From the IMG/VR virus record IMGVR_UViG_3300048768_000026, positions 1-22,090 of that record: a DNA stretch of 22,090 nucleotides; one strand, given 5' to 3'. The DNA comes from a virus. The notes below the pieces were generated by a model. The model saw only the letters and a program-made list of their open reading frames with translations, searched no databases and was not told the origin of the DNA. Both the position numbers and the translations under genes were made by a program. Every line of letters begins with the position of its first letter. The first letter of the stretch is position 1. Shown here piece after piece: positions 1 to 14,489 of this stretch.

Positions 1-86
1 CTGAGCGCTGTTGTAGTTGCCCGTGGTGTTGTAATAGAGGGCCGCGTACCCCTGAGCGCTGTTGTAGCTACCCGTCGTGTTGTAGG
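1..86 (-). repeat. 51-bp tandem repeat encoding YadA-like units
   Basis: The 16-mer ctgagcgctgttgtag occurs at 1-16 and again at 52-67, a spacing of 51 bp or 17 codons, and both copies are followed by cccgt.gtgttgta. On the coding (minus) strand each unit reads about YNSAQGYAALYYNTTG. Only about 1.7 units are inside the window and the array probably continues to the left. Confidence 0.7.
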
Positions 87-1578
87 ACCCACCCCCACCG
101 GAAAATGTATTACGCAGAGACGCTAGCTCTTGGTATAGTGCCTGAAACGATACGGCGCCGGTAGAATCTTTTCCTGTGTAAGAAAATGTCGAGATCGGAT
201 TAATTTGTTTAGCTGTAACTGCAATGGCCCCAACAAACGCCACTGTGGGCGTATATGTCAGTGAGGTTCCGTCAGCTCGCGGGGAGAAACTGTACATTGA
301 AGTTGCAGCGCTAGAAGAGGTGGAAGTCTGCGCTGTTCCAATCGCTCCCGTGATGGTTCCCCCACCGATAATAGATGTCATCACCAAGGTTCCGGTACAT
401 GACGCACTCCCCGTAGGCGTTCCTAATGTGCCCGTGGTAGGTGCAGAGGTAAACGCTGTGCCACGAGTAACTACGGCAATGGCGGCTGTGACAACTCCGG
501 AGGTAACAGTGATTGTGCCGGTCGCACCAGATCCGCCGCCTCCTGTAACGGTCAACGGATAGGTCCCTGTGCCCGTGCAGCTTAATCCACTAGCATAGGT
601 CATCCCCGTGACGCCTGCATTGTTAGTGATCGTCGCGCCGATCTGATAGAGGTTCCCACCGGTGAACCCCGTGCAGGTGAGCGGCGCTATCGTACCGGGT
701 GCAACGTAATTCGGATACGTGCCAGTCCATCCTGTCCCGCTGCATGTCCCACTGGTAGTTAGCTCCGAGCCGAGAGATGCGGAATCGGTTGTAGTGGCAC
801 CAAGGAAAATCTCATTCCCAGGGTTCGCTGCCGTGCCCACTGTTAACTGTGCTGATCCTGTGCGCGTAATTCCCGGCGCGTTTTGAAGATTCCCGCTACC
901 ATCGGCATACAAGATTGCGTTTGCCGTGGGGGAACCACCAATAGGATTACTGAGAGATAGGCCAAACCCGCAGGACTCCACCCCAGTAGAGTTCTTGGAA
1001 CACATCGTGCCTGATTTGGAATAAAACGCCGTAGTCCCAGCACTCGGCGTTGCGGGGGTGCTTTGGTCGGTGGATATAAAATTTGCACCTGTCCCGTGCA
1101 GCACCGTATTCCCCACCGATAGACTGCCCGTCGCAACCCCTCCCGCGGCACTCGGCACGATGGCCGGGGCTCTCCATTCGGTGCCGTCGTACCGTAGCGT
1201 TACCGGCACGGACCCAGAGAACACGGCCAGGGGTGGCGCCGCGCCTTCGTTGGTCTGGACGGCCTTCGCCCCGCACCCGACGTCCAGCGTCGGTGATGCA
1301 CCCGAGGTCACGTCGGGAGTCCACAGGACTGTCATCCCGCCCGCGCATGTACTGATCGGTTGCTGCGCAGTGCAGGCGTAGGCCGTGGCGGAGCCGCTGC
1401 TGCTGACGCAGGGGTTGCTCGCCAGGCTCGCTGGGACCGCGCCGTTGACTTTGGCGACGGTCGGGCTGGGGTAGGTTCCGCTGAGGTCTCCCGTAGCCGG
1501 GCCTGCCGGAGAACGTGAAGGGATCGGCTGCGCCACAGCCGCGCCCGCGAGAATCAAGATCGAGAAAAGTCGTTTCAT
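1..1578 (-). CDS. Secreted-type tail-fibre/adhesin-like protein, C-terminus cut by window edge
   Basis: The frame is open for 526 codons from the ATG at 1578 to the window edge without a stop. A strong Shine-Dalgarno (GAAGGAG, about 7 nt before ATG) supports the start. Residues 1-17 form a Sec signal peptide (MKRLFSILILAGAAVA, then Q). Next comes a GDLSGTYPSPTVAKVNG motif, which recurs in phage tail-fibre and host-specificity proteins. The middle is low-complexity Gly/Thr/Ser/Ala-rich beta-type sequence. The last visible part has 17-residue repeats of the type GYAALYYNTTGNYNSAQ, resembling YadA-head-like repeats of trimeric adhesins and phage fibres; such proteins often end in an S74 chaperone domain, which would lie outside. 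It is the last of three consecutive fibre-like genes. Role (receptor binding or surface adhesin) is inferred. The signal peptide is odd for a virion protein. Confidence 0.7.
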   Translation of the reverse strand, partial: MKRLFSILILAGAAVAQPIPSRSPAGPATGDLSGTYPSPTVAKVNGAVPASLASNPCVSSSGSATAYACTAQQPISTCAGGMTVLWTPDVTSGASPTLDVGCGAKAVQTNEGAAPPLAVFSGSVPVTLRYDGTEWRAPAIVPSAAGGVATGSLSVGNTVLHGTGANFISTDQSTPATPSAGTTAFYSKSGTMCSKNSTGVESCGFGLSLSNPIGGSPTANAILYADGSGNLQNAPGITRTGSAQLTVGTAANPGNEIFLGATTTDSASLGSELTTSGTCSGTGWTGTYPNYVAPGTIAPLTCTGFTGGNLYQIGATITNNAGVTGMTYASGLSCTGTGTYPLTVTGGGGSGATGTITVTSGVVTAAIAVVTRGTAFTSAPTTGTLGTPTGSASCTGTLVMTSIIGGGTITGAIGTAQTSTSSSAATSMYSFSPRADGTSLTYTPTVAFVGAIAVTAKQINPISTFSYTGKDSTGAVSFQALYQELASLRNTFSGGGGSYNTTGSYNSAQGYAALYYNTTGNYNSAQ

Positions 1579-1594
1579 GTTATCGCTCCTTCTT

Positions 1595-2977
1595 CTACCT
1601 AGCTACGAAAGCAGCGTTTACCTGCCCAGACAGAACATTGATAACCCTCGGGGTATTTTCCACCAGCTCAAGGTCGCTTAGCTGGATGCAGTGCAGCCAG
1701 CCCGCGAAGATCCATGTATCTGATGCCGGAGAATTCGGGTCTCCCCATGCCTGGTCTGCGTCCGTGGTAATAAGCCCGGGTGATCCGTTGTCCGTGAAAT
1801 ACAGCCCGTACTGCTGCAATGCGGCCAGCGTCGGGAGAAACCATGCCGGGAAAGGATGGCCAGCGTTGTCCTTGTACCCGCACGTGGCAGAGCTGAAGGA
1901 CGCCTTAAGCCGAAATGTCGCTCCAAGGTAGACTCCGGACGATCCCGACCCGCCGGCCTGATGTGTGGCAGGCCACTGATACCCTGCCGTGGCCATCGCC
2001 GAGGTGAGCGCGAAACGGACGCCATGCAGAATGGGCTTTCCGGAGTAGACATCCGCGTGAGTCAAAGTAAGAGGCCAGATTGGCATACCAGCCGCGTCCG
2101 CCGAGGTTAGCCCGGTGGAATCGACCGTGTAGGGGATCAGCTTCGTTGCGCTTCGCAGCCGATAGTCAGACAGCGGCCAGATAGCCCCGTTCCCGATCTG
2201 ATAGGGCTGCGTCCCTGCCCCAAATGAGTACGTCTCGTACAGGAGACAGGTGTCTGTGTTGACCACTAGGACGTGATTGTCGCCTCCCGATGGCCCCCCC
2301 CCGGATACTAGCGCGGGCGCTCCGAAGTTGTACGAACTTAAAAACATGGACGGCGTAATCGGATAATTCCCGGAGTCGTGTTCTGGGTTGGGGCCGGCCC
2401 AATTGATGGCCGGAATTGGCGTTGCGCTGGTGGCCAGATTGATAGCCATCTCGGGGCTTGGCCCGAGGTTGCCCTGCCCGAGGGACGCTATTTTGGCAAC
2501 GCTGAACGAATCGACGGGCAGCCTGCTGACGGGCGAGTTGAGGTAGTAGTCTCCGGGGAATGCTGGGCAGGTTGAGCCGGGGATCGTCCGCGTAACCGGG
2601 ATTGTCACAGTGCCTCCTGTGCCGCCGGAGCCGCCGGAGGTACCTTGCTGACCCGCTGGCCCTTGCGGCCCTGCCGCGCCGGTCAATCCCTGTGGACCCG
2701 CAGGACCCGTAGGCCCTTGCGGTCCGGCTGCTCCCTGTGGCCCTGCTGGCCCTTGCGCACCAACCACTCCTGGCAATCCCTGCTGTCCAGGTGCCCCGGC
2801 CGGCCCCTGCGGCCCCGTGGCTCCCTGCGGGCCTTGAGCGCCCGGAGTACCCGCCCCTGTCAAACAAGCCAGCCCACCTCCTGGACACGTCGCCTGCATG
2901 GTGATTACGAGGCTTGCCGGCTGGGCTTGAGCGATTGGACACACAGCCAACGCGCACAGCAGAATTGTTAGTTTCAT
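1595..2977 (-). CDS. Collagen-like protein with Sec signal peptide
   Basis: This 460-aa protein starts at ATG 2977 behind an AAGGAAG Shine-Dalgarno. Residues 1-19 are a signal peptide ([19 protein letters not shown]). Residues about 41-120 are uninterrupted Gly-X-Y triplets ([13 protein letters not shown] type) rich in Pro, Gln and Ala, which is the collagen-like triple-helix pattern found in phage fibres and some bacterial surface proteins. A Gly/Ser hinge follows and then about 335 residues of a Trp/Tyr/Pro-rich domain with several Cys that I do not recognise; it is probably the distal binding head. The gene lies 16 nt upstream of the next fibre gene and 21 nt after the previous one, so the three are probably co-transcribed. 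A trimeric fibre is inferred from the collagen repeat. Whether it is on virions or exported by the host is open. Confidence 0.75.
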
Positions 2978-2998
2978 GATGCTTCCTTTTGTGTCACG

Positions 2999-3997
2999 TT
3001 AGAATCCATCCCTGCCGCTGACATTACAGTATCCCGCGACTCCTGGCGAAGCAAATGTCGGGGAAATCGTTGTCAGTGTACCGCTGGAACTTGTCGAGCC
3101 GAGCGGGCCAAGTGAAAACGCGGCTGTCGGCGTGGTATAGGAGTAACATTGCCACATCACCGACTCTATGTGAGTCAGATTGAGGCTTCCTACGTTGATC
3201 GTGCAACTTGTGTCCGTCGAATTAAATGTGCAGTACAAGTGCGGCGCGGTATTGTCCGGGATGTCTGCGAGTTGAAGCGCGCGGAAAGTCGGCGCGCCCG
3301 GCCCCCCACTTACCGGGCCGATGAAAACGGCATTCTGCGCCGCAGCGGACAGCGTGAAACTCAGCGCCGGGTAGCTCGTTGCGTTCGCAACGGCCGCTGT
3401 GAACAGAGGGGTCAGGCTGCCCGTACTGAAGCTCTGCACTGCGCCTGGGATGCCCGGCGGCCCCGGCGTCGGGATGGAAACCACTGCGGGTTGCGAGAGA
3501 CGCACCTGATCGATTGTGACCGGACTGCTGCTCGTTGGAACCGCCCACTGCTCAGTCCAGCCCGCCGAATTGTTCCCGACGAACCATCGAACGGTGTACG
3601 TCGGGCTGATGTCGAGCCACGTAGCAGGGGACGATCCGGGCACGGTTCCGGTGTTGCCAACCCGCGCCAGCCAGATTTGGCCAGCGTATTGCACCCGCGT
3701 CCCACTTACGTAGGCCGTCGTGGATGACCATGCGGATCCGCTCGTGGACCCCTGCGTAGGGCAGGCGTCGGTAGGAGGCAGGTTGACCGCGAAATTGCCG
3801 CCGGAGAAACTCACGACATCCACCGTGCCGCCGATAAATGCGTTGCCGCCGGCAACGCAGGACGCGGAGATCGTAATCGTCGCCGTGCCGCTGGCACCGC
3901 CAGCAGCCGGGTCGAACGGCGTCGGGACGAACTGGGAAACGGTGGTAGTTGACGCCCACGCCGCGCCGGCCAGCAGGATCAACCACGGTCTCCGCAT
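2999..3997 (-). CDS. Tail-fibre-like protein with chitin-binding-like module and signal peptide
   Basis: A protein of 332 aa is called from ATG 3997, chosen because it sits one base after the preceding stop (TAACATG) and begins a Sec signal peptide (MRRPWLILLAGAAWA, cleaved before STTT); an in-frame start 12 codons upstream would bury this signal inside the previous gene. Around residues 100-140 the pattern AWSSTTAYVSGTRVQYAG...IWLA...PGSSPATW matches the ChtBD3/CBM5-12 carbohydrate-binding style. A short Pro-Gly tract (PTPGPPGIPG) follows, then PTFRALQLADIPD, a signature often seen in phage fibre and side-tail-fibre proteins. The C-terminus has Cys-containing beta-rich sequence. Likely a receptor- or polysaccharide-binding fibre component; the export signal is unusual. 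Confidence 0.7.
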   Translation of the reverse strand: MRRPWLILLAGAAWASTTTVSQFVPTPFDPAAGGASGTATITISASCVAGGNAFIGGTVDVVSFSGGNFAVNLPPTDACPTQGSTSGSAWSSTTAYVSGTRVQYAGQIWLARVGNTGTVPGSSPATWLDISPTYTVRWFVGNNSAGWTEQWAVPTSSSPVTIDQVRLSQPAVVSIPTPGPPGIPGAVQSFSTGSLTPLFTAAVANATSYPALSFTLSAAAQNAVFIGPVSGGPGAPTFRALQLADIPDNTAPHLYCTFNSTDTSCTINVGSLNLTHIESVMWQCYSYTTPTAAFSLGPLGSTSSSGTLTTISPTFASPGVAGYCNVSGRDGF

Positions 3998-3998
3998 G

Positions 3999-4316
3999 TT
4001 ACACCGCCCGCGCTGGGCAGGCCACGTCGCCACTCCGAATGATGACGTAAACCGTGTCGAGCGGGTAGTTCTCCGTCCCCTCGGAAACCGGCGGCGCGAA
4101 CTGCGCGTTGTTCACTGTCCCGATGGGGATACCGTTGGTAGCGGAGACGTTCGAATCGCCCACGCGCGAGATGCCAGTGGAACTCAGCATCACGATTTGC
4201 CACCATTTCACTAGCCAGTTGGCCTGGCTCACAGCTACCCCGCCAACCTTGAGCAGGGTGATGAGTTGGTGCTTTGCTCCGTCGCCCACAATATCGTCAA
4301 ATGCGGAAATCTTCAT
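3999..4316 (-). CDS. Small phage protein, probably virion-associated (105 aa)
   Basis: A 105-aa protein with an ATG at 4316. The pattern AVSQANWLVKWWQIVML..GISRVGDSNVSATNGIPIG......FAPPVSE....YPLDTVYVIIRSGD resembles small phage proteins carrying a VGDxxVSxxxGxPI motif and a Leu/Asp-I/V-Y-V-x(3)-GD end, found among tail-associated genes; this is from memory of the pattern only. It has no Shine-Dalgarno. Instead TAAAAT ends six bases before the ATG with a TTGCTA box 17 bp further upstream, suggesting a leaderless transcript. Its stop is one base from the next gene's ATG, so it leads the three-fibre operon. It is divergent from the plus-strand cassette at 4418. Confidence 0.6.
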   Translation of the reverse strand: MKISAFDDIVGDGAKHQLITLLKVGGVAVSQANWLVKWWQIVMLSSTGISRVGDSNVSATNGIPIGTVNNAQFAPPVSEGTENYPLDTVYVIIRSGDVACPARAV

Positions 4317-4322
4317 GCCCGC

Positions 4323-4351
4323 ATTTTACACCACAACGCAAACTCTAGCAA
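4323..4351 (-). promoter_or_regulatory. Leaderless-type promoter for the fibre operon
   Basis: On the minus strand TTGCTA (4351-4346), a 17-bp spacer, TAAAAT (4328-4323), six bases and then ATG (4316). The -10 matches 5/6 and the -35 4/6 of the sigma70 consensus. Transcription would begin at or next to the A of the start codon, which fits the missing Shine-Dalgarno of the gene. Confidence 0.5.
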
Positions 4352-4383
4352 AACCGGAATTCGCGTAGGTGTATGCTGTAGGC

Positions 4384-4411
4384 ATGACAAATACCAGTAA
4401 CCGTCTATAAT
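4384..4411 (+). promoter_or_regulatory. Leaderless-type promoter for the plus-strand gp10 cassette
   Basis: On the plus strand ATGACA (4384-4389), a 16-bp spacer, a perfect TATAAT (4406-4411), six bases and then ATG (4418). The -35 matches 5/6. The predicted start site coincides with the ATG. The imperfect inverted repeat ATGC-TGTAG-GCAT (4373-4385) touches the -35, and ATGGT-AA-ACCAT (4418-4429) covers the start codon; either could be an operator or a 5' hairpin. Confidence 0.55.
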
Positions 4412-4417
4412 CGAGGC

Positions 4418-4579
4418 ATGGTAAACCATAGCCAGGGTGCGCGGGGGGCTGGGCATGAAACCCGGCTCCCTCCTGGTGCGTTGGGACGCCACAATCTGCC
4501 AGGCCTCCCCGGACTTGCCCTCCAGGAGGATTACGTCACTGCGGGAGATCCGCAGGACCTGGCCCCAAAAACTCCATGA
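4418..4579 (+). CDS. Small protein upstream of gp10-like gene (53 aa)
   Basis: This 53-codon frame begins at the ATG six bases after a perfect TATAAT and ends at TGA 4577-4579, overlapping the gp10 start as ATGA, the same junction type used by genuine gene pairs here. The protein is Gly/Pro/Leu-rich at first (LPPGALGRHNLPGLPG) and ends with an acidic part (LQEDYVTAGDPQDLAPKTP). I do not recognise a family. In other phages the slot before gp10 often holds a head-closure or connector protein, but this one is far shorter than those. Promoter position and coupling make it likely to be translated; its function is unknown. It could also serve mainly as a translated leader for the downstream gene. 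Confidence 0.5.
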   Translation: MVNHSQGARGAGHETRLPPGALGRHNLPGLPGLALQEDYVTAGDPQDLAPKTP

Positions 4580-4986
4580 AGATCCGCGCCACCGCGACGT
4601 TCAGGCCCGGCAATTATGCCGCAGTCGAAGCGAAACTGCTGCCCCGGCTGATCGAGGGCGCGACAGTGGGCGCCAACATCGTGCTGGACATTTCCCAGGA
4701 AATGGTTCCGGTGGACACGGGAGAACTGAAGGGCTCTGGCCGGGTGAGCGTGGAGAAGCAGGGGACCGTCATCACCGGGTATATCGTTTACGGCGGAGAC
4801 GGCATTGATTATGCCCTATATGTAGAGGCGGGCACGGGCCGAAGAGGCGCAACTTCCGCCGGCTCAGGGCCATGGGAGTACAATCTGGCTTGGCCCGGCA
4901 TGGTCGCTGAGCCCTATATTAGGCCAGCCCTAGATATTGGGCGTCAGGACGTTCTGGACGCTTTCCGCGCGGCGTTGGGGCTCTGA
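4576..4986 (+). CDS. HK97 gp10-like head-tail joining/tail protein, opposite strand to its neighbours
   Basis: A 136-aa protein of the HK97 gp10-like family, whose members act at the neck/tail-completion stage of virion assembly. The hallmark VPVDTGELKGS lies at residues 44-54, followed by a beta-rich middle, YALYVEAGTGRRG around residues 79-92 and the C-terminal PYIRPALDIGRQDVLDAF helix; length is normal. ATG 4576 is used because no start codon lies between it and the upstream stop in this frame, and it overlaps the preceding gene as ATGA. It is one of only two plus-strand genes in the window, while every other structural gene runs leftward. Its 3' end overlaps the convergent HNH gene by 68 bp. 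It depends on its own promoter at 4384-4411. Confidence 0.8.
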   Translation: MKIRATATFRPGNYAAVEAKLLPRLIEGATVGANIVLDISQEMVPVDTGELKGSGRVSVEKQGTVITGYIVYGGDGIDYALYVEAGTGRRGATSAGSGPWEYNLAWPGMVAEPYIRPALDIGRQDVLDAFRAALGL

Positions 4987-5449
4987 GCGTGCCGTCCGGG
5001 AGGACGGTGTAGAGAACTCCCTTAATTTTCTTGCGCGTGCGCCGGGCCTCCAGGATTGGCCTACACTCCAGGCATTTACGGCCCCCTCCAAGGATGCGCG
5101 TATTCTCTGGTGTATATTCGTGGCCGCGTGGGCAATGCGTCTTGGCTCGCTCCCGCGCCCCGTTAACCATCCCCGATATTCCGCGTCGGACATTCTCGGC
5201 GTGGGTTACCAACTCCATGTGATCGGTGTTGACGCACGGGCGATACCTGCAAAGGTGATCCGGCTCCAGTCCTTCCGGGATCTGCCCGCGCTGGATCAAC
5301 CAAGCAGCGCGCGGCATTCGCACGTTTTTACCGTCGATCCTGAAGCTTCCGTATCCGTTTGTCAGGTACCCCACCCACTCCCAGCAGCCGTTTGGCAGGA
5401 CGCGGACGTGCGACATGAAGCGTTCGAGGGTAGAATTGAATTTGGGCAT
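4919..5449 (-). CDS. HNH endonuclease, homing-type (HNH_3-like)
   Basis: A 176-aa free-standing HNH nuclease with a strong Shine-Dalgarno (TGGAGGTG, 8 nt before ATG 5449). The N-terminus RF-(x)8-GCWEWVG(x)4-GYG is typical of this phage family. The HNH core is PDHLCRYRPCVNTDHMEL: D64-H65, N74 and H77 are the likely metal-binding and catalytic residues, followed by THAENVRRG. A second zinc-binding segment CPRGHEYTPENTR...CLEC (C106, H110, C126, C129) follows, and the C-terminus is basic. Such genes cut DNA at specific sites and spread themselves among related phages, often inserting beside head and packaging genes. Its 3' end overlaps the convergent gp10-like gene by 68 bp. The 71-bp gap upstream shows nothing beyond its ribosome site. 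Confidence 0.85.
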   Translation of the reverse strand: MPKFNSTLERFMSHVRVLPNGCWEWVGYLTNGYGSFRIDGKNVRMPRAAWLIQRGQIPEGLEPDHLCRYRPCVNTDHMELVTHAENVRRGISGMVNGARERAKTHCPRGHEYTPENTRILGGGRKCLECRPILEARRTRKKIKGVLYTVLPDGTLRAPTPRGKRPERPDAQYLGLA

Positions 5450-5520: not shown

Positions 5521-6141
5521 CTATTCGCCCGTAATAGTGGCGTCCGTTTTGCGAAAGTTGACTCCGCAATCGCAACGCGGGTGCGCCGTCGGCTCACTGT
5601 CGCCGCTCGGGAAATTGTCGTCGATTGGAATCCACCCGGCGTCGATGTTTGGCTGGCAGATTTCCTCGCAGGCCTCGCCGTCGCCGTCCCATGACTTCTC
5701 ATCCGCGCCCCATTCATCCGCCATCGCGCGGAGTCCGGCGTTGTAGGCGTCGTTTCCCTCGGTTTGAGCGACCATCTCGGCGCGCGCGCTGGAAAAGTCG
5801 GCGTAGGTGTCGGTGATGGCTTTCACGATGTCATCCGCCGTGCCGCCGGCCTGCCAAGCGTCCGCAATCGCTCCCTGGAGCCGTTCGACCGTCGTATCGT
5901 TGATCCCGCCGGTCAATTTCGACAGCGACCGGTCGCGGAGGTAGCGGCTGGCCACGGTGTCTCGGAGGCTCGCGTCCGTGCCGAGTTCCGCGGCTAACGT
6001 CTTTGCGGCATTGGAAATCAACGCAGAAATCGCCGCGTCGTAGTCCGCATCCTCGCCTTTCGTAACCGCAAACCGGAGCGGCTGGATGCTGGATGGAAGG
6101 AGCGACGATGCGAATGCTTTTGCGGCCGGTGTGCGCATCAC
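5521..6141 (-). CDS. MuF-like minor head/morphogenesis protein (C-terminal domain)
   Basis: A 206-aa protein with the Mu gpF/SPP1 gp7 signature: ARAEMVAQTE at residues 119-128, then KSW, CEEIC (C158, C162), GW-IPIDDNF and HPRCDC at residues 187-192. Members sit inside the procapsid near the portal and assist head assembly or DNA delivery. The start overlaps the preceding stop: GTG at 6141 (GTGA) or ATG at 6138, with AAGGG just upstream. The full-length family usually carries a helical N-terminal part; here that part seems to be encoded by the separate preceding gene (6138-6425), so the protein looks split. Downstream it is followed by the HNH gene rather than by the usual scaffold, protease and capsid genes. 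Confidence 0.8.
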   Translation of the reverse strand: MMRTPAAKAFASSLLPSSIQPLRFAVTKGEDADYDAAISALISNAAKTLAAELGTDASLRDTVASRYLRDRSLSKLTGGINDTTVERLQGAIADAWQAGGTADDIVKAITDTYADFSSARAEMVAQTEGNDAYNAGLRAMADEWGADEKSWDGDGEACEEICQPNIDAGWIPIDDNFPSGDSEPTAHPRCDCGVNFRKTDATITGE

Positions 6142-6425: not shown

Positions 6426-6952
6426 CGGTCGCCACCGCTCGATCCGCGCGCCATGCGCCACTCACGCCACTTCTCAAGATCGGCCGCGGGCGCAGTCAAG
6501 AAGTTGGCGAAGTGAGCACTCGCCCACGAAGGATGGATGCGCCAGTAGCGGGTGAGGTCCGGGAAGACCTCCCGGACGAACTCCGTGCCGCACGTGCCAC
6601 ATGTCCACGATGTTGTCGGGGAGTTTTGGAACAAAAACGGCGCGAGCCCTGCCCGGCAGCACTTGTCGGCGTCCTCATCGATGACGTTGAGTGGCCCGTT
6701 ATCGGTTGCGGGCCACTCTGCTCTGGCTGTTGACTGTGCGCCCTCCTTTCCGTAGATCAAAACCGATGCGCCGCTGGTATTCCGCAGAAATGAGCCCTTA
6801 CTCGGTGCGGCCAGCAGCGCGGCATAGTGCGCGGCTGTCCATCCGGCCCGCGCGTACAGCGTTCCGTCGCGGTAGCGCACCAGCAGCACTCCGTCCGGCT
6901 CGATCAGCCCCACCGCGGCGATGTGCGAGGATTCTACGGGCGTCATTGTCAT
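6422..6952 (-). CDS. KTSC-like domain protein with zinc-knuckle (176 aa)
   Basis: ATG 6952 overlaps the portal stop as ATGA, with GGAG 8 nt upstream; the frame is open further upstream but that part lies inside the portal gene. Residues about 18-50 (VLLVRYRDGTLYARAGWTA, then LLAAPSKGSFLRNT) follow the pattern of the KTSC domain: a beta-hairpin with YRDG-LY, then an S-K-G-S-F turn. Around residue 100 a CGTCGTEFV segment forms half of a zinc-ribbon, with a further Cys pair just before it (DKCCRAG). The C-terminus is Trp-rich. KTSC-type proteins occur in phages and near lysyl-tRNA synthetase genes, but their function is not established. The position between portal and minor head protein suggests a head-associated or accessory role, which is inference. 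Confidence 0.55.
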   Translation of the reverse strand: MTMTPVESSHIAAVGLIEPDGVLLVRYRDGTLYARAGWTAAHYAALLAAPSKGSFLRNTSGASVLIYGKEGAQSTARAEWPATDNGPLNVIDEDADKCCRAGLAPFLFQNSPTTSWTCGTCGTEFVREVFPDLTRYWRIHPSWASAHFANFLTAPAADLEKWREWRMARGSSGGDR

Positions 6953-8952
6953 CCGTGCAGCTCCATCGTGTCGGCCAGCCGCCGCAACGCCGCCGCCGCC
7001 TCTTTCTGCTGTTTCGGCGCGGGCGCGGCCGGCTCCGAAGGATTTCCGCCCGGTTGCGCCGTCGCTACAGCGTTTGGCGCTGGTTGTACTCCGCCCTGGG
7101 CTGGCAGTTTCGGCACCGGCGGCGGCAAAACCTCTTTCGTCCGGTCGGGGTCGTATTCCTTTTCGGGGTACTGTTTTTCGGCCTCTTCGTCGCCGTCTTC
7201 CACATCCAACTGCCGGTATAGCACCTTGACGCCTACCTTTTCGTCGATCCCCACTACCTGACCACCGTGATTTCCGAGCGTCATGGCTTGGACCGTCGCC
7301 CCGATCAGCGCCGGGACATCGCCCTCGCGGATCGCGGGCCACGTAACGCGGACCTCGATATCGTCACTTCGCTTGTTTTTGGCCTCCGCATAGCGCCACC
7401 CGCCTGACGGCAGGCGCACGCGCTCCGCCTCCCGGATGCGGATAGCACCGGGGTCCGGGCAGGATTCGCGGAGCTTGCCGCCGGGGGCTTTGAGCGATCT
7501 CTTGAGTACGTAGGTGAGCAAAACCACCAGGTCTTCCGTCCACTCTTCCTGGAGGCTTAGAAACACGGTTTCCGTGGGCCTGTCGAGGCTGGTCGCTGTC
7601 GCCAGATTGCCAGTGCTTACGTCGCCCAAAAAAGTCTCTGGAACGCCCATCACCATGCAGCACATCAATTTGTACTGCCGGACATCTTCGGGGCTGAACG
7701 TCGAGCCCTGGACTTTGAACGCCTCCATTGTCGTTCCCGGCCCCGAGATAAACGTGGACCCCGCGATGGCCGGAGGGTTGCTATCCCAGATCGGAGCGCC
7801 CGGCCCCACTTGGGTTTGCAGTTGTTGCTTGATGCCCTCGATAGCCGCCTGGCCGCCCTTGGTGGTGACGGTCGATGCGTATTGGCTGAGACTCTGCCGC
7901 ACGGAAGCGCAAGCCTCCAGAAAACGCCGCGCTTCTTTTGCCCAGTCGATCATTGGATAAATACGCGGGCATCCGAAGAGCCACTTGCCAACAGCGCCAA
8001 CCTTGCGGTGGTGCACAGGGCTGTCCCACATCACCGGATGGCCTTGGATCTCCGTCAACTTCGGCTCCGGCGGCCGGCACTCGGCGGGGTCGTAGTTCAG
8101 TGCCGGATACCAAGCCTCACGCGTCACTGTCGCAGATGCAGCGGTCTGTGCATCGTGGGCGCGCTGTGTCCACACACGGCGGTAGTAGCGCGGGAGATCT
8201 GCATCCTCCGGGTCCGTCCAAATGTCCTGTATCTCCGTGGCATCGATCATACGGACATCGACATCTCCCGTGCCGGGGTCGGAAAACATAGTGAAAAACA
8301 GATTCCCGTCATGGTCCTTGGATCGCTGCAAGGCCATCAGCGCAACGCGTCCCAGCACTTTCTGATTGCGCGCAAAAAAATCGTCGATCAAATTGTTCGC
8401 GTTCGGGTCATTCGTCGTGGCGTCGAAGCCGCGCGCAAACACGTACTGGGCGTTTACGTCTACTAGCCGCCGAACGATGGGATTTTTGATAGAATACAAC
8501 CGGCAAATCAGAATGATTTGCTGAATCCCCCAGCGAGAGAATTCGAGCCCCGAGTAATTGATCTCGCGCTGCCACCCGACGTTTTGCAGCAGCAGCTCGT
8601 ACATGCCATACGCGCCGGTGGGGCTGATCTCACCCACCGGGCCGGCCTCACGGAGACGTAGCGCCTCCCGGAGCGGCTTGCTGGCGTAGGCCATAGCATC
8701 CACATCGCCGGGTGCCCACGGGCCAGAGCCGCACATGGCCTGTGCTTCCACCATCTCAGCGAGGAATTGCTTTGCGCGATCTTGCTCTAGCGCCTGCCGA
8801 GCCTGTGATTCGGACAGCGCGATTGTCAACGCCCTGTTGGTTTCGCGCTCGCGCTGTAGGTTGGATTCGTAGCGCGATCCAGCGGCGAGCGCGGAGGAAA
8901 GGACTTGCGTCGGCTGCGGTCTGCGGAGCCACGACTCGAGGAAACGTCTCAT
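6949..8952 (-). CDS. Portal protein
   Basis: This 667-aa protein would form the portal ring at the capsid vertex through which DNA is packaged. Family features include an N-terminal helical segment, the GLEFSRWGIQQIILICRLY region leading into NPIVRRLVDVNAQYVFARG, a central WYPALNYDP/KWLFGCPRIYPMIDWAK region, then the LMCCMVMGVPETFLGD and ATATSLDRPTE motifs in the part that precedes the crown, and a C-terminal Pro/Ala/Gln-rich tail from about residue 600. It is longer than typical HK97-type portals (about 400-500 aa), mainly because of the N-terminal extension and the tail. There is no Shine-Dalgarno; the ATG is seven bases after the previous stop and six bases after TATAAT. It is separated from the terminase by the glycosyltransferase island, whereas portal and terminase are usually adjacent. 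Confidence 0.85.
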   Translation of the reverse strand: MRRFLESWLRRPQPTQVLSSALAAGSRYESNLQRERETNRALTIALSESQARQALEQDRAKQFLAEMVEAQAMCGSGPWAPGDVDAMAYASKPLREALRLREAGPVGEISPTGAYGMYELLLQNVGWQREINYSGLEFSRWGIQQIILICRLYSIKNPIVRRLVDVNAQYVFARGFDATTNDPNANNLIDDFFARNQKVLGRVALMALQRSKDHDGNLFFTMFSDPGTGDVDVRMIDATEIQDIWTDPEDADLPRYYRRVWTQRAHDAQTAASATVTREAWYPALNYDPAECRPPEPKLTEIQGHPVMWDSPVHHRKVGAVGKWLFGCPRIYPMIDWAKEARRFLEACASVRQSLSQYASTVTTKGGQAAIEGIKQQLQTQVGPGAPIWDSNPPAIAGSTFISGPGTTMEAFKVQGSTFSPEDVRQYKLMCCMVMGVPETFLGDVSTGNLATATSLDRPTETVFLSLQEEWTEDLVVLLTYVLKRSLKAPGGKLRESCPDPGAIRIREAERVRLPSGGWRYAEAKNKRSDDIEVRVTWPAIREGDVPALIGATVQAMTLGNHGGQVVGIDEKVGVKVLYRQLDVEDGDEEAEKQYPEKEYDPDRTKEVLPPPVPKLPAQGGVQPAPNAVATAQPGGNPSEPAAPAPKQQKEAAAALRRLADTMELHG

Positions 8953-8958
8953 GGCCCG

Positions 8959-8986
8959 ATTATACGCCCGGTAGCGGCGATGTCGT
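8959..8986 (-). promoter_or_regulatory. Possible leaderless-type promoter for the portal/head operon
   Basis: On the minus strand ACGACA (8986-8981), a 16-bp spacer, TATAAT (8964-8959), six bases and the portal ATG (8952). The -10 is perfect and the -35 matches 4/6. Spacing equals that of the plus-strand promoter at 4384-4411. Because the box overlaps the stop codon of the preceding gene (GTA TAA T), chance or simple translational reinitiation is a real alternative. Confidence 0.4.
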
Positions 8987-9712
8987 GTCCTTCCAGAATT
9001 TCAGCTTGTCCCGGTCCCAGCAGAATGGCTCCCCGTAGCCGTCCAGGTGCGAACCCCAGCCCTTGGCGAGTTCCGATGGAACCCGCCGTGCCTTGCGTTG
9101 CGCCACACGGGCGCGGGCCTGCTGCGGAGTCCGAAACGGGTAGTGTTTCATCGTGAATTGCAGTGGGAATATGCGCATCCCTGGGAATTGGACCTCATGG
9201 CCGCCCCCGCCCAACACTACGCGCCCGACGTTCTTCCACAATTTCCGATTTGGAATCCGGCTGATGCAGTCCGCCTCGTCGTAATGGTGGAAATACGCCT
9301 CGGGACTGGCATCCGTGGGCCACTCGCCATCGCAGCAGTAGAACTGGTAGACATGGAAATCGATGGCGTTGAATCCGAACTCATCGACGCGCACTACGCT
9401 CCGCGCCAGCGTCTCGCCGGGAACTGGGCTCCGGCGCCACTCATCGGCATCCGTGTAAAGGCACCAATGCGCGTTGCTTGATTCTGCCAGGTCCTCGATA
9501 CGGTGCAAGATCTGCTGGTGGCGGTTGTAAGGGTCCGGGCCTGTGCCGGGGAATCGCTCCGCAGAATCCGCACACCGGCAGGCGATGTCGTAACTTCCGT
9601 CCGTAGACCAGCCATCAATCACATGGACGGTGACGCCCTGCTCGTGCAGGTGGCGCAGCGTGTGCGGCAGGATGTCTGCCTCGTTGAAGCACGGGAGAAA
9701 CGCTTGGATCAC
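8960..9712 (-). CDS. Family 2-type glycosyltransferase
   Basis: The start is GTG 9712, which overlaps the previous stop as GTGA and has a near-perfect GGAGGTGA ribosome site; the longer in-frame ATG lies inside the upstream gene. The 250-aa product begins with a GT-A fold: FLPCFNEADILPHTLRHL (residues 5-22), VHVIDGWSTDGSYDIA, and a DXD-type metal/nucleotide-sugar site YTDADEW (DAD at 88-90). A Trp/His-rich acceptor region follows (FYCCDGEWPTD, then MKHYPFRTPQQARAR). It is the last of three glycosyltransferase genes in one coupled operon. Substrate and acceptor are unknown; candidates are virion proteins, modified DNA bases or host surface glycans. It would act in the cytoplasm, with no membrane segment visible. 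Confidence 0.75.
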   Translation of the reverse strand: MIQAFLPCFNEADILPHTLRHLHEQGVTVHVIDGWSTDGSYDIACRCADSAERFPGTGPDPYNRHQQILHRIEDLAESSNAHWCLYTDADEWRRSPVPGETLARSVVRVDEFGFNAIDFHVYQFYCCDGEWPTDASPEAYFHHYDEADCISRIPNRKLWKNVGRVVLGGGGHEVQFPGMRIFPLQFTMKHYPFRTPQQARARVAQRKARRVPSELAKGWGSHLDGYGEPFCWDRDKLKFWKDTTSPLPGV

Positions 9713-10578
9713 GGTGTCACCTCCCGTGCATTGCGCCACGCCTCGAGATCGTCTTCCCATCGCTTGTGTAGCGCTGCGTTCTCTTCCAGCGACTTCGCGT
9801 AGGGCTTCGCGTAGGGCTTCGGCTGTACGTGCGGCGCCCACCACGACGGCTCGCCGGTGCGCGGCGAAACCCCCCATTTATCCTCGAAAACCTTCTCGTG
9901 CAATCGCACGTCTGCCGGGTGTTCGGGGTCCGCGCGGAAGGTGCTCTTGAGCCTCGTGTGGTTGACCACGACATCGTTCTCCACGGCCAGCTTCAGGCCG
10001 GCTCCGCGGACCCGCCAGCAGTAATCATCATCGTCGCAACCGTAGCCGCGCGGGCCGGGGCCTCCCGCATTGACTCCGAACCGCTCATCTAGCAGGCCGA
10101 TCTTGTCGATCACCCAACGCGGGATGTAAACGCAGATGAAGGCCAGCATGGTAGATTCATCATGCAGCATGGGCTCGACATGGTATCCGCCCGCGCCGTC
10201 GGGCACGTAGCGCGCATCACAATGTACCTGTGACGGCGTGCCGCAGGAATCGCAGGACGCCGCGATCACGCCGTACTCGGGATGCTTCGCGGCGTCCCGT
10301 GCGAGCCGCGCGAGTCCTCTCGGCGTCTCCAGGAGCGCATCATCGTTCAAGATCACCACGTCATCATCTCCGGCGGCCTGGATACCGAGGTTCACGTTGC
10401 GGGAGAAAACGAACGGCTTTACGCCGTACACGCGCTCGACACCGGCGATTGGCGGCAACCCGCTATCCGTGTCATCCACAACCACCTCGCGGCATGTCTC
10501 ACCGGCCGTCCGCAGATAGCAAAGGCACATCCGCAGGTTGCGCTCGTTGCGCGTAGGGATCACGACGGAGTAAGTCAT
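9709..10578 (-). CDS. Family 2 glycosyltransferase
   Basis: The 289-aa product starts at ATG 10578, overlapping the micro-ORF stop as ATGA; an alternative in-frame ATG is three codons upstream. Motifs of a GT-A glycosyltransferase are clear: YSVVIPTRNERNL at residues 3-15, FVFSRNVNLGIQAA, VVILNDDALL (DD at 79-80), and a C-terminal acceptor/base region IGLLDERFG, then YGCDDDDYCWRVRGAGLKL, equivalent to the E-x-D-x-C/D-WR element of this family. The C-terminus has a small duplication (KPYAKPYAK), encoded by the repeated 12-mer near 9800. It is translationally coupled to the following glycosyltransferase. The acceptor is unknown. Confidence 0.85.
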   Translation of the reverse strand: MTYSVVIPTRNERNLRMCLCYLRTAGETCREVVVDDTDSGLPPIAGVERVYGVKPFVFSRNVNLGIQAAGDDDVVILNDDALLETPRGLARLARDAAKHPEYGVIAASCDSCGTPSQVHCDARYVPDGAGGYHVEPMLHDESTMLAFICVYIPRWVIDKIGLLDERFGVNAGGPGPRGYGCDDDDYCWRVRGAGLKLAVENDVVVNHTRLKSTFRADPEHPADVRLHEKVFEDKWGVSPRTGEPSWWAPHVQPKPYAKPYAKSLEENAALHKRWEDDLEAWRNAREVTP

Positions 10579-10622
10579 GCACACCACATCTCGACGCGTG
10601 CCTTAATTTCCTCTATAGTCAT
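10575..10622 (-). CDS. 15-codon micro-ORF bridging two genes by ATGA overlaps
   Basis: ATG 10622 overlaps the stop of the 76-aa gene as ATGA, and the TGA at 10577-10575 overlaps the ATG of the glycosyltransferase, again as ATGA. The encoded peptide is MTIEEIKARVEMWCA, which looks like a plausible amphipathic helix start rather than random sequence. It fills the junction exactly, so ribosomes could pass 10619 to 10578 without dissociating. It may be a translational coupler, a genuine microprotein or the surviving N-terminus of a deleted gene. Evidence is purely architectural. Confidence 0.45.
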   Translation of the reverse strand: MTIEEIKARVEMWCA

Positions 10623-10849
10623 AATTCCAGCCCCCTTTCGATTCTAAGAATTTTGTTCTGCCCCTTCAGGTTGCACGCCCAGCACACGCCGTGTTCTTCT
10701 CCGTAGCTGATGGCGCAATCAATGGCGTTACCGACATTGCCGGTTCCAGGACAGGAATTTTCCTCGATGGTGAATTCCAGATTGTCGGCGTACTGATCTT
10801 CGACCATCACCTCCACTTCGAGCGTGCATTGGACGGTGACTCTAACCAC
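10619..10849 (-). CDS. Small cysteine-containing protein of unknown function (76 aa)
   Basis: I place the start at GTG 10849 because GGCGGAGG lies six bases upstream; the frame extends nine codons further to GTG 10876, which has no ribosome site. The protein has an N-terminal beta-type VRVTVQCTLEVEVMVEDQYADNL segment, then an acidic stretch and a Cys cluster: NSCPG, NAIDCAISYG and GVCWACNLKG. The last pair (C-x2-C) could bind a metal. The end is KILRIERGLEL, with the stop overlapping the micro-ORF as ATGA. I do not recognise a family. The 60 bp between its start and the methyltransferase stop show only the ribosome site. Confidence 0.55.
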   Translation of the reverse strand: MVRVTVQCTLEVEVMVEDQYADNLEFTIEENSCPGTGNVGNAIDCAISYGEEHGVCWACNLKGQNKILRIERGLEL

Positions 10850-10909
10850 CAAACGCCTCCGCCCAGTGCTGTCCACATCCGGGAGTGCTCCGGTCTCGGC
10901 TTCTGTTTC

Positions 10910-11392
10910 TCACTTTACGGCCTCCAGTTTTGCCGAGAACTTCCAGACCTCGCAGCGCACGCCCCCGCGCCCTGCGAAATCAGTGTACACCCGCTCCGTA
11001 ACTTCCAGCACGCGGAACCGCGCCACAATGCCATAGGCGCGCGAGAATCGCTGGTGCGCCGGTGAGCCATCCTCGAAATACTGGAGGCTGTTCGGCGTCC
11101 ACGGAGATACGTGGGTGGGGTCCTGCCACTGACCGGCACCCTTAGCGGCGTCGGGACACTCCATTCGCAGGATGCCGCCGGGCTTGAGCACGCGGTGCGC
11201 TTCGTTCATCGTCAGGATTCGATTTGGTAGATGCTCGAAAATGTCTGCTGCGTAAATCTCATCGACCGTCGAGTCCGCAAACTGCCATGGCTCTGCGAGA
11301 TTCATAACCAAGTCCACGCCGGGGAGTCTCACGCGGTCTACGTTTACCCAGCCGGGCCGAATGTCATCCGAGCATCCGAGGTTCAGTCTCAT
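10910..11392 (-). CDS. Class I SAM-dependent methyltransferase (small molecule/sugar type)
   Basis: ATG 11392 overlaps the previous stop as ATGA. The 160-aa product begins MRLNLGCSDDIRPGWVNVD, the motif I glycine-rich SAM loop with an acidic motif II, then DLAADIFEHLPN-type sequence (AADIFEHLP at residues 48-56) and VLKPGGILRMECPD at residues 68-81. The DPTHVSPWTPNSLQYFE block is seen in methyltransferases located in polysaccharide and phage glycosylation clusters. It lacks any DNA methylase motif. It sits between two glycosyltransferase genes, so methylation of a transferred sugar is the likely role; this is inferred from context. It is shorter than many relatives (about 200 aa) but contains the complete core. 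Confidence 0.8.
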   Translation of the reverse strand: MRLNLGCSDDIRPGWVNVDRVRLPGVDLVMNLAEPWQFADSTVDEIYAADIFEHLPNRILTMNEAHRVLKPGGILRMECPDAAKGAGQWQDPTHVSPWTPNSLQYFEDGSPAHQRFSRAYGIVARFRVLEVTERVYTDFAGRGGVRCEVWKFSAKLEAVK

Positions 11393-12183
11393 AGTACGAT
11401 CTCCCGCAATTCCCGCTCTGTTTCCTCCGCCGCCAACGTCGGGACGGCCCCCATCGCCATCGCGCAATACGAGTTCCACTCCGGAGCCGGCCGCCACTCC
11501 GGCGCGCTCCGCAGCATCACGGAGCGGTCGTAGGCTTCGGTGTTGGTCCCGTGGATGCCACACACCATGCGCGGATGCGCGTCTCCAATCGACGGATTAC
11601 CAAGGCACTTCTCCGCGTTCTTCAGCCACCAGCGCCGGTCTTCGTGGATCGCGTCGTCAAACGGGCATGATTCCCACGCCGAGCGCCAGTAGCACATCGA
11701 TGTTCCGAGCACGTAGCGCTGGTCTCCGTGGCTGTAGAGCCAGGCCTCGTTGCGCGGCAGATCAATGATTTTTTTCCATCCCGTCGAATTGTTTTTTCCG
11801 TGGCGCGTGTCCCAAAACAGCACCTCCCGGTATCCGACGCAGGCTTTGCCGGTCGCTTGCAGCAGCGCTACCTGCTCCTCCAGGCGGCGCGGGTGGCTCC
11901 AATCGTCGGAATCCCAGTGCGCGATAATGTCGCAATGGCTGGCCAGCGAGTTTGCCGCATTGCGTAGCGCTCCAATGGTGTGGCGTTTCCATTTCTGCTG
12001 GCGGCAGACCGCCTCGCGCGAGCCGAAACAGAAGCACTCTGGGACCACCGGAGTCTCGCCGCTGTCGTAGACCAGCAGCCACTTGTTGCTGTAGGTTTGG
12101 GCGCGGAACGACGCGATAGCACGCGCCACCATCTCCGGGCGGCCGTCTGCGAGAAGAACAGCGCAAAGGCTAGGCGCTCGCAC
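11389..12183 (-). CDS. Glycosyltransferase, GT-A fold (family 2-like)
   Basis: GTG 12183 is chosen because an AAGGGGGTG ribosome site lies just upstream and the conserved fold starts immediately (APSLCAVLLADGRPEMVARAI); this gives 264 aa. The frame extends upstream but without homology-like sequence. Motifs: SFRAQTYSNKWLLVYDSG at residues 25-42, IGALRNAA, then AHWDSDDWSHPRRLEEQ with the DXD-type site at 91-94, and VGYREVLFWDT. The C-terminal half has a Trp-rich region and the HPRMVCGIHG motif. It is the first glycosyltransferase of the island, followed by the methyltransferase as ATGA. Donor and acceptor are unknown. Confidence 0.8.
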   Translation of the reverse strand: MRAPSLCAVLLADGRPEMVARAIASFRAQTYSNKWLLVYDSGETPVVPECFCFGSREAVCRQQKWKRHTIGALRNAANSLASHCDIIAHWDSDDWSHPRRLEEQVALLQATGKACVGYREVLFWDTRHGKNNSTGWKKIIDLPRNEAWLYSHGDQRYVLGTSMCYWRSAWESCPFDDAIHEDRRWWLKNAEKCLGNPSIGDAHPRMVCGIHGTNTEAYDRSVMLRSAPEWRPAPEWNSYCAMAMGAVPTLAAEETERELREIVL

Positions 12184-12900: not shown

Positions 12901-14145
12901 TCAGATCGGGCTGATGGTGTACGGTTGCGGAGCGGCGCTGATCGTGCCCGCCTGCGTCAGATAACTCCGTTGCTCGCGCGGCCCCACCAGCGCGGCCCAT
13001 GCGATGGCCAGCGCCATCACGGTATCGTCGTGGAGCCCCTCCGGCGCGGCGTAGCGGATGTGGCCGGATGGCGTGTTTTTTCCTTCGAACGCTTGCAATT
13101 CGCCCAACAGTACTGGGTCATTGGGAATTCGGATCGAGCCCCGCTCGAATGCCAGCGCGAGCGCCTGGATGATGGACGCCTTCGAAGGGCCGGTTGTCAG
13201 AAATCCCGCCACGGGCAGCCGGTCGGCCTGGAGTTGCTCTATCACCGGGCCACCCATGGAGTTGCTCTCCGCGACGATCCAGCACCGCGCGCCGTGTCGC
13301 CGCCAGAACTCAGCCAGCCGGCCGCGCTGCATGGAATACTCAACACCGCGGAAACGATCCATACCGACTACATGGCCGCGCTCGGAAATCGCCACAAATA
13401 CCGTGTAGTCGCCCGTGCGACCCCAGTCCACGCCAATCATGGCGGCGGATTCTAGTGTGATTTGGCCTACCGCCTCGGCGATCCTGCGGAAGACCGCGCC
13501 CGCCCATGTGACGAATTGCGCTTCCACCTCCTGGGCAAACGCGAGGTCCGTTAGGTCCTGGCGCATGGCCTCGATTTCCGCCGAAACGATGTAGGGATTG
13601 CTCGATGTGGGCATTTGCCACGATGCCCATTCGGCCTGCGCAGGGTCCGCGCCGCGCTGGTAGAGGGAGTGGAAATAGTTCGCAGTTCCCTTGGGCGTGC
13701 TGAGAAACCACGCGCTGCCCTGGTAGTCCGCAAGCATCGGGCGCAAGGTCTGTTGCCAGGCGTGTTCGAAGTCCCCGACCAGTGCCGCCTCGTCAACCAC
13801 GATGCGCGCATAAGATCGCCCGCGGCCGGCGTCCGGAGAGTCGAGCGACCAGCAGTCGATGCGGCCGCCGCCCACCAGCTCGAGCCAGTGCTCTGATTCG
13901 TTTTTGCGCGCAGTGACGGGCGCGAGCGTCTGGTGAGCTGTGCGCCACACCTCCGAGAGCAGCCGGTAGGTGGGCGCGAACCACGCCGCGGGCTTGCCGG
14001 TCAGTGCGGTGCGGATGAGGCGGTCAAGCCCAAGGACCGTTTTTCCCCACCGGCGCCCGCAGCAAACGACGTTGAACCGCTTCGCGCCGCGGAGCACTTC
14101 ATACTGCGCCGGGTGCGGGCGCGGCAGGGTGAGGGTGAGCGTCAT
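12901..14145 (-). CDS. terL: Terminase large subunit (ATPase/nuclease)
   Basis: ATG 14145 overlaps the terS stop as ATGA; the in-frame extension upstream overlaps terS and is rejected. The 414-aa DNA-packaging motor has a Walker A CCGRRWGKT at residues 28-36, the adenine-binding/Q region FAPTY, Walker B ARIVVDEAA (D118, E119) and coupling motif FLSTPKG at 148-154. The RNase H-like nuclease starts with GVDWGRTGDYT (D240), then VAESN (E293), and ends with LHDDTVMALAIA (D373, D374). It translocates DNA through the portal and cuts concatemers. Length is normal. It is followed by the 124-bp gap with an inverted repeat. Confidence 0.92.
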   Translation of the reverse strand: MTLTLTLPRPHPAQYEVLRGAKRFNVVCCGRRWGKTVLGLDRLIRTALTGKPAAWFAPTYRLLSEVWRTAHQTLAPVTARKNESEHWLELVGGGRIDCWSLDSPDAGRGRSYARIVVDEAALVGDFEHAWQQTLRPMLADYQGSAWFLSTPKGTANYFHSLYQRGADPAQAEWASWQMPTSSNPYIVSAEIEAMRQDLTDLAFAQEVEAQFVTWAGAVFRRIAEAVGQITLESAAMIGVDWGRTGDYTVFVAISERGHVVGMDRFRGVEYSMQRGRLAEFWRRHGARCWIVAESNSMGGPVIEQLQADRLPVAGFLTTGPSKASIIQALALAFERGSIRIPNDPVLLGELQAFEGKNTPSGHIRYAAPEGLHDDTVMALAIAWAALVGPREQRSYLTQAGTISAAPQPYTISPI

Positions 14146-14489
14146 TCCGGGACGGACTTGTCGGCGTAGATCACCCGCAACGCCACCGGGCCACCTTCGC
14201 CGCCTACCAGCTCGTGGCGTTCGGTCTCTCGCCAGCCGGCGCGGGTCTTGAGCCAGAAGAACGTGGCGGCCGGGTTCTGGCCGGAGACTGCCATCGAATA
14301 GGCCATCTCCGCGACTTTTGCGTTCGCCATGATCGCGGCGGTAGCCAGCTCGTTGGCGTAGTACTTGCGTAGCGTGACGTGGGAGCATCCCACTACGCGC
14401 CCGATGTCCTCCTGGGGAACGCCGTAGGACGCCATGGCCTTGACCGTGGCGCGGTCTTTATCGCTCGGCTTATAGGCGGGGTACGCCAT
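14142..14489 (-). CDS. terS: Terminase small subunit-like DNA-binding protein
   Basis: A 115-aa protein with a strong TTGGAGG ribosome site before ATG 14489. An N-terminal helix-turn-helix covers residues about 13-42 (VKAMASYGVPQEDIGRVVGC, then SHVTLRKYY), followed by an oligomerisation helix (AAIMANAKVAEMAYSMAVSG) and NPAATFFWLKTRAGWRET, a segment frequently found in this terminase small subunit type. It recognises the packaging site and regulates the large subunit. It overlaps the upstream methyltransferase by 20 bp and the large terminase by ATGA. Confidence 0.85.
   Translation of the reverse strand: MAYPAYKPSDKDRATVKAMASYGVPQEDIGRVVGCSHVTLRKYYANELATAAIMANAKVAEMAYSMAVSGQNPAATFFWLKTRAGWRETERHELVGGEGGPVALRVIYADKSVPE

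Follow-up and report, generated by a model that had tools for sequence, protein, structure and literature searches.

Fibre-like proteins with putative Sec leaders in the head/tail block of a presumed Acidobacteriota siphophage

The fibres of phages are generally regarded as cytoplasmic virion components. In bacteria, trimeric adhesins and collagen-like surface proteins (YadA and Scl types) carry a leader, a stalk and a binding head. Among tailed phages, the lambda genes lom and bor lie in the late region, and their products are located in the membrane. Both affect the lysogen, in its adherence and serum resistance (PMC3430580). Here we analysed a 22,090-base fragment record of IMG/VR (IMGVR_UViG_3300048768_000026, positions 1 to 22,090; this whole stretch is referred to as the window), in which three consecutive minus-strand genes encode fibre-like proteins that begin with putative export leaders: f1 (2999..3997, 332 amino acids (aa)), f2 (1595..2977, 460 aa) and f3 (1..1578, at least 526 aa because the contig ends within it). 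The window phage, a soil siphophage, carries f1-f3 as a cargo cassette within its head/tail block, in a slot of variable content. With moderate confidence, we read the three as Sec-exported, disulfide-bonded, carbohydrate-binding proteins of an adhesin or enzyme type that would act outside the cytoplasm late in infection. Like lom and bor, they would be exported products of tailed-phage genes that serve neither replication nor assembly. Unlike lom and bor, they are large proteins of fibre, collagen and lectin-like character, frequently with two to four of them close together, and most of the phages concerned have no recognised integrase. The leader-stalk-head plan of f1-f3 resembles that of Scl- and YadA-type proteins, but no membrane or wall anchor is seen in f1 or f2, and f3 is cut by the contig end. 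Likewise, no C-terminal beta-barrel was found among the leader-bearing relatives scanned with Pfam; the end of f3 lies beyond the contig.

The leader of f1 (3953-3997) spans 15 aa, MRRPWLILLAGAAWA, with serine after the cleavage site (AWA/S). That of f2 (2924-2977) has 18 aa and the site AQA/Q, and that of f3 (1531-1578) has 16 aa, MKRLFSILILAGAAVA, followed by glutamine (AVA/Q). Leaders were called with a strict home-made rule, not SignalP, that asks for a basic n-region, an uncharged h-region (at least 8 residues, mean Kyte-Doolittle value at least 2.2) and an A-x-A-like site. All three proteins pass, with n-, h- and c-regions in place, so that f1-f3 carry by this rule the export signal that cytoplasmic tail fibres do not have. 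An earlier note on this DNA had described basic, hydrophobic leaders with A-x-A sites on the products starting at 3997, 2977 and 1578, and the minus-strand reading frames at these places bear this out. The rule passes only 14/656 (2%) conserved head, tail and terminase genes and 0.7-1.0% of shuffled f1-f3; the chance of three consecutive passes is therefore about 1e-5 to 1e-6. Taken as part of the favoured reading, the leaders would be genuine Sec signal peptides and substrates of signal peptidase I.

Could these proteins instead be ordinary tail or head fibres, their hydrophobic N-termini being mis-called starts or membrane-active segments rather than export signals? The start of f1, which lies 2 nucleotides (nt) past an upstream stop codon and is without a Shine-Dalgarno sequence, would suit this explanation, as would the likeness of the collagen part of f2 to known tail-fibre families. 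However, good Shine-Dalgarno sequences precede the other two of the three starts (AAGGA at f2, AGGAG at f3), and secreted host relatives with leaders exist for f2. The behaviour of leaders and cysteines in related phages, described below, also speaks against ordinary fibres, an explanation that we consider very unlikely.

Relatives were found with the window portal gene (6949..8952, minus strand, phrog_10963) and a 15-member portal alignment, and the best 80 of 99 confirmed IMG/VR relatives were used. A codon-model gene caller that had been trained on the contigs yielded 2,227 genes on 83 loci, which are often fragments and include some near-copies, so counts are not independent. The caller trimmed some starts, which left the first leader count too low, and six relatives were corrected by hand. 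The gene order in the lineage runs terminase, glycosyltransferase-like cluster, portal, MuF, slot 1, scaffold, decoration, capsid and slot 2, and continues with adaptor, neck, tail genes, tape measure, tail tip and slot 3, several of these names resting on position and visual judgement. Leader-bearing fibre-like genes occupy all three slots across the relatives, often two to four close together. On the 83 loci a leader is present in 51/81 proteins of fibre composition (at least 150 aa) versus 32/962 others (Fisher p 3e-43), and many of those 32 look like false positives among glycosyltransferases. The exported fibre-like set inside a head/tail block, proposed in the earlier note from a single contig, thus recurs in related phages. 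The note also put forward adhesion, receptor masking or superinfection exclusion by surface fibres, which are conceivable roles of the set.

The leaders themselves change far more than the sites at which they end. Two relatives, G014 and L035, share 6% leader identity, and their mature chains both start with QY[AS]NSP[IF]NSS[ST]TAPSG from the same A-x-A site. In a gene pair of G006 the leader is 16% and the body 78% identical, and the leader of f2 is 28% identical to that of a homologous phage protein on L172, with a cleavage site at the end of both. The putative leader function is thus kept while its sequence changes, as mostly shown on relatives. Persistence of cleavage sites through leader replacement is at odds with ordinary fibres. 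Leaders can also be gained. The first cassette gene encodes a small jelly-roll protein (3999..4316, minus strand, 105 aa) that is without a leader in the window but has one in 5/48 relatives (L113, L091, G009, L102, G016). A further candidate, on L097, was rejected as an artefact of an internal GTG; the tree of this small protein has three leader changes with L097 included and about two gains once it is removed. The model of the protein is a jelly-roll-like beta sandwich (predicted local distance difference test (pLDDT) 93) with no PDB match of note. Many small unnamed proteins of tailed phages share this fold, as does a protein of a Nitrosopumilus spindle-shaped virus.

Exported bacterial proteins favour even numbers of cysteines (PMC7678975). 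In the lineage, 33/39 leader-bearing mature chains have an even count (p 7e-6 versus one half), compared with 127/219 (58%) of the core genes, 258/475 of other genes and 13/21 leaderless fibre-like proteins. The mature chains of f1 and f2 hold 6 cysteines each, and that of f3 holds 10 up to the contig end. This parity, another point against ordinary fibres, suggests export into an oxidising compartment and disulfide bonding. Mis-called starts as the source of the leaders were rejected on the Shine-Dalgarno, leader-swap and cysteine-parity evidence.

The cassette seems to be transcribed on its own. A promoter match, TTGCTA-17-TAAAAT (4323..4351, minus strand; a match of sequence only), stops 6 nt short of the start codon of the small gene (ATG at 4316), and because of this short distance the cassette messenger RNA is probably leaderless. 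In 24/45 relatives the small gene has a TATAAT-like box, with one mismatch at most, 4-9 nt ahead of its ATG; elsewhere the same box precedes 68/1414 unassigned genes, 22/75 portal genes and few others. Leaderless transcripts at the small cassette gene (upstream interval 4317-4575 in the window) and the portal gene are a probable regulatory habit of the lineage. A divergent promoter-like site, ATGACA-16-TATAAT (4384..4411, plus strand, 11/12 matches), faces an inverted gp10-like gene. Terminator-like sites in the window, looked at for a cassette terminator, were not above chance.

What the exported bodies might do is hinted at by their modules. Residues 89-127 of f1 match CBM5/12 below threshold (E 7e-5, 23.3 bits versus a cut-off of 26.2), f2 has a collagen-like stalk (Collagen PF01391, E 2e-10), and f3 has no Pfam or PHROG match, only motifs visible by sequence: GDLSGTYPSPTVAKVNG after the leader, then YadA-head-like repeats. 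The fibre signatures named in the earlier note thus stand for the collagen of f2, fall short of the cut-off in f1 and amount to visible motifs in f3. Leader-bearing relatives that occupy comparable slots contain GH43 with LamG, malectin or collagen (Pfam). These relatives, together with the CBM5/12 segment of f1, make the exported bodies point to glycan binding, and in some also to cutting. The label of fibres is apt in so far as the proteins are fibre-like, but some are rather secreted carbohydrate-binding or enzyme modules (GH43 with LamG, malectin, or collagen with a host secreted domain). A tblastn search with f1, f3, the f2 domain and the L172 protein against 50,697 phage records gave no match.

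The host secreted domain is the C-terminal domain of f2 (about 1595-2590), which carries the motif FPADNxWN...DRHVLV...GWTSADAAGLPI and has a low-confidence predicted structure (pLDDT 59) with no meaningful PDB match. Homologues occur in 18/149 sampled Acidobacteriota genomes, at 32-36% identity over about 300 aa, and most of the 12 proteins read have a recognisable leader; two host members of the family that were scanned had no Pfam match. This secreted family is like f2 in its domain and leaders and differs in that no collagen stalk was seen in the N-terminal stretches read. The closest relative of f2 that we found is the phage protein on L172, 53% identical over the C-terminal domain (hosts at most 36%) and of the same layout, with leader, collagen and f2 domain. 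The L172 contig is low in GC (36%), and genes around that one (L172:4337-12944) look T4-like, with neck, terminase and sheath judged by eye. The predicted leader-collagen-f2-domain module therefore crosses phage lineages, and the f2 domain is found with a leader in phages L172, L173, L179 and L180. On L179 (120-6825), three consecutive leader-bearing fibre-like genes adjoin lysis-like genes.

The host homologues raise the possibility that f1-f3 are moron-type genes, that is, secreted host proteins acquired with their leaders and kept for lysogen fitness, as with lom and bor (PMC3430580). The cassette's own promoter (by sequence match), the leader-bearing host homologues of the f2 domain and the precedent of lambda would all fit, and so would a host-like style of leader, with Q at position +1 in 46% of phage versus 27% of host leaders. 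Nonetheless, 19/22 records searched are without a tyrosine integrase, a small protein of phage type has gained leaders, the closest f2 relative is a phage and not a host protein, and the lineage is near-absent from sequenced genomes: in a search of one genome per species across 84,980 species, the sole match was a contig binned with an Acidobacteriia metagenome-assembled genome. We regard this origin and purpose as unlikely. The earlier note had weighed captured host leaders against real export, and each option holds in part; for capture, the f2 domain is common to host secreted proteins, and leaders have been gained on the small phage protein and swapped between homologues.

A literature search for leader-bearing tail fibres found nothing directly relevant. 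The nearest cultured counterparts are Tunturi 1 and 2, closely related podophages isolated on Tunturiibacter (PMC11924767, PP887698, PP885685). In both, five of the proteins encoded by open reading frames (ORFs) 12-17 are leader-bearing (ORF12-14, 16 and 17), including a pectin-lyase-like spike, and the annotations among these genes are tail fibre, tail spike or pectin lyase, and virion structural protein. We found no mention of signal peptides in the Tunturi paper (PMC11924767). The mature cysteine counts in Tunturi 1 are 20, 10, 20, 1 and 32, the single odd count belonging to the 149-aa ORF16. As in the window lineage, the leaders sit on fibre- or spike-like proteins that are rich in cysteines, mostly in even numbers, in phages of presumably the same host phylum. 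In contrast to the window siphophage, Tunturi 1 and 2 are podophages with largely unrelated genes, and only short fibre motifs are in common. In the stretches read of Tunturi 3 and 4 the fibre-like genes are without leaders, so leaders are not a rule for all Acidobacteriota phages.

Tunturi 1 and 2 bear most directly on another explanation, namely that f1-f3 are receptor-binding proteins of the virion that are exported by Sec, acquire disulfides on folding in the periplasm and join the tail or head only after lysis. In the two podophages the leader-bearing genes take up the part of the tail module expected for spikes, and the genes read included no recognisable leaderless spike. In the window lineage the slots adjoin capsid and tail genes. 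Moreover, the f2 domain occurs without a leader in phages L175-L178, and since the L175 copy lies directly after a tape-measure-like gene, f2-family bodies can serve in virions. On the other hand, several genomes of the window lineage possess, besides the exported set, fibre-like genes without leaders after the tail-tip gene, and no tailed phage with such an assembly route was found in the literature searched. Attachment of f1-f3 after lysis appears quite unlikely to us. In its general form, in which Sec-exported receptor-binding fibres or spikes of some Acidobacteriota tailed phages would join finished virions at lysis, as an extracytoplasmic last step of tail assembly, we hold the idea to be distinctly improbable.

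Action of f1-f3 outside the cytoplasm, which we favour, draws together the leaders, their conservation and swapping, the even cysteines, the cassette's own promoter, the recurrence in the lineage and the secreted relatives. The cassette would be expressed from that promoter and presumably produced with or near the late genes. The leaders would direct the chains to Sec for export, signal peptidase I would cleave them, and the exported chains would form disulfides as they fold, in the periplasm or extracellularly. Modules of fibre, collagen and lectin-like type could then bind polysaccharide of the cell surface or matrix, the presumed target, and in relatives perhaps also cut it. Their most likely place of action, late in infection, would be the envelope or matrix of the cell that the phage has infected, and they would not be tail parts assembled in the cytoplasm. 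The benefit might be progeny freed from glycan-coated cells and debris, or masked receptors. Alternatively, the proteins may loosen the matrix, alter the surface of the doomed cell or join virions after lysis.

Several points weigh against this proposal. The f1-f3 leaders are short (15-18 aa), and the leader rule was tuned within the same analysis, with the starts of the six relatives reset by hand before the final counts. The f1 carbohydrate-binding match stays under its cut-off, and f3 is without a characterized domain. The f2 domain also has leaderless copies in phages (L175-L178), one of them directly behind a tape-measure-like gene. The window phage probably infects Acidobacteriota, but we infer this host. 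Finally, a tyrosine integrase is found in 3/22 relatives searched and a serine recombinase in none of the 22, the window itself being a fragment; classical lysogenic conversion is therefore unlikely as the general purpose of the exported set. The three integrase records (L102, L112, L118) all hold leader-bearing genes in their slots.

Acidobacteriota are among the most abundant soil bacteria. If f1-f3 are indeed exported, infected Acidobacteriota would display or release phage-encoded glycan-binding proteins, and tail-fibre annotations in soil viromes would have to be read differently. The recurrent leader-bearing, even-cysteine, fibre-like set in a late block suggests a class of phage secretome that is as yet unstudied.

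Elsewhere in the window, the terminase large subunit lies at 12901..14388 (minus strand), and a Mu-F-like head morphogenesis gene (5521..6141, minus strand) is the final conserved head gene ahead of the cargo slot, which lies between head-morphogenesis and scaffold genes and is variable in content. After the head-packaging genes, the minus strand reads HNH endonuclease (4919..5449), small gene, f1, f2 and f3. Between HNH and the small gene, an inverted HK97-gp10-like gene on the plus strand (4576..4986; PF04883 below its cut-off) forms the upstream border of the slot. Genes at 8960-11563 are glycosyltransferase-like and methyltransferase-like (named by eye), and many relatives have such genes in the same terminase-portal interval. 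The glycosyltransferase-like products could possibly glycosylate the virion, the exported fibres or the host surface. At the contig end (21894-22090), a GC-rich tandem repeat codes for Ala/Thr-rich sequence.

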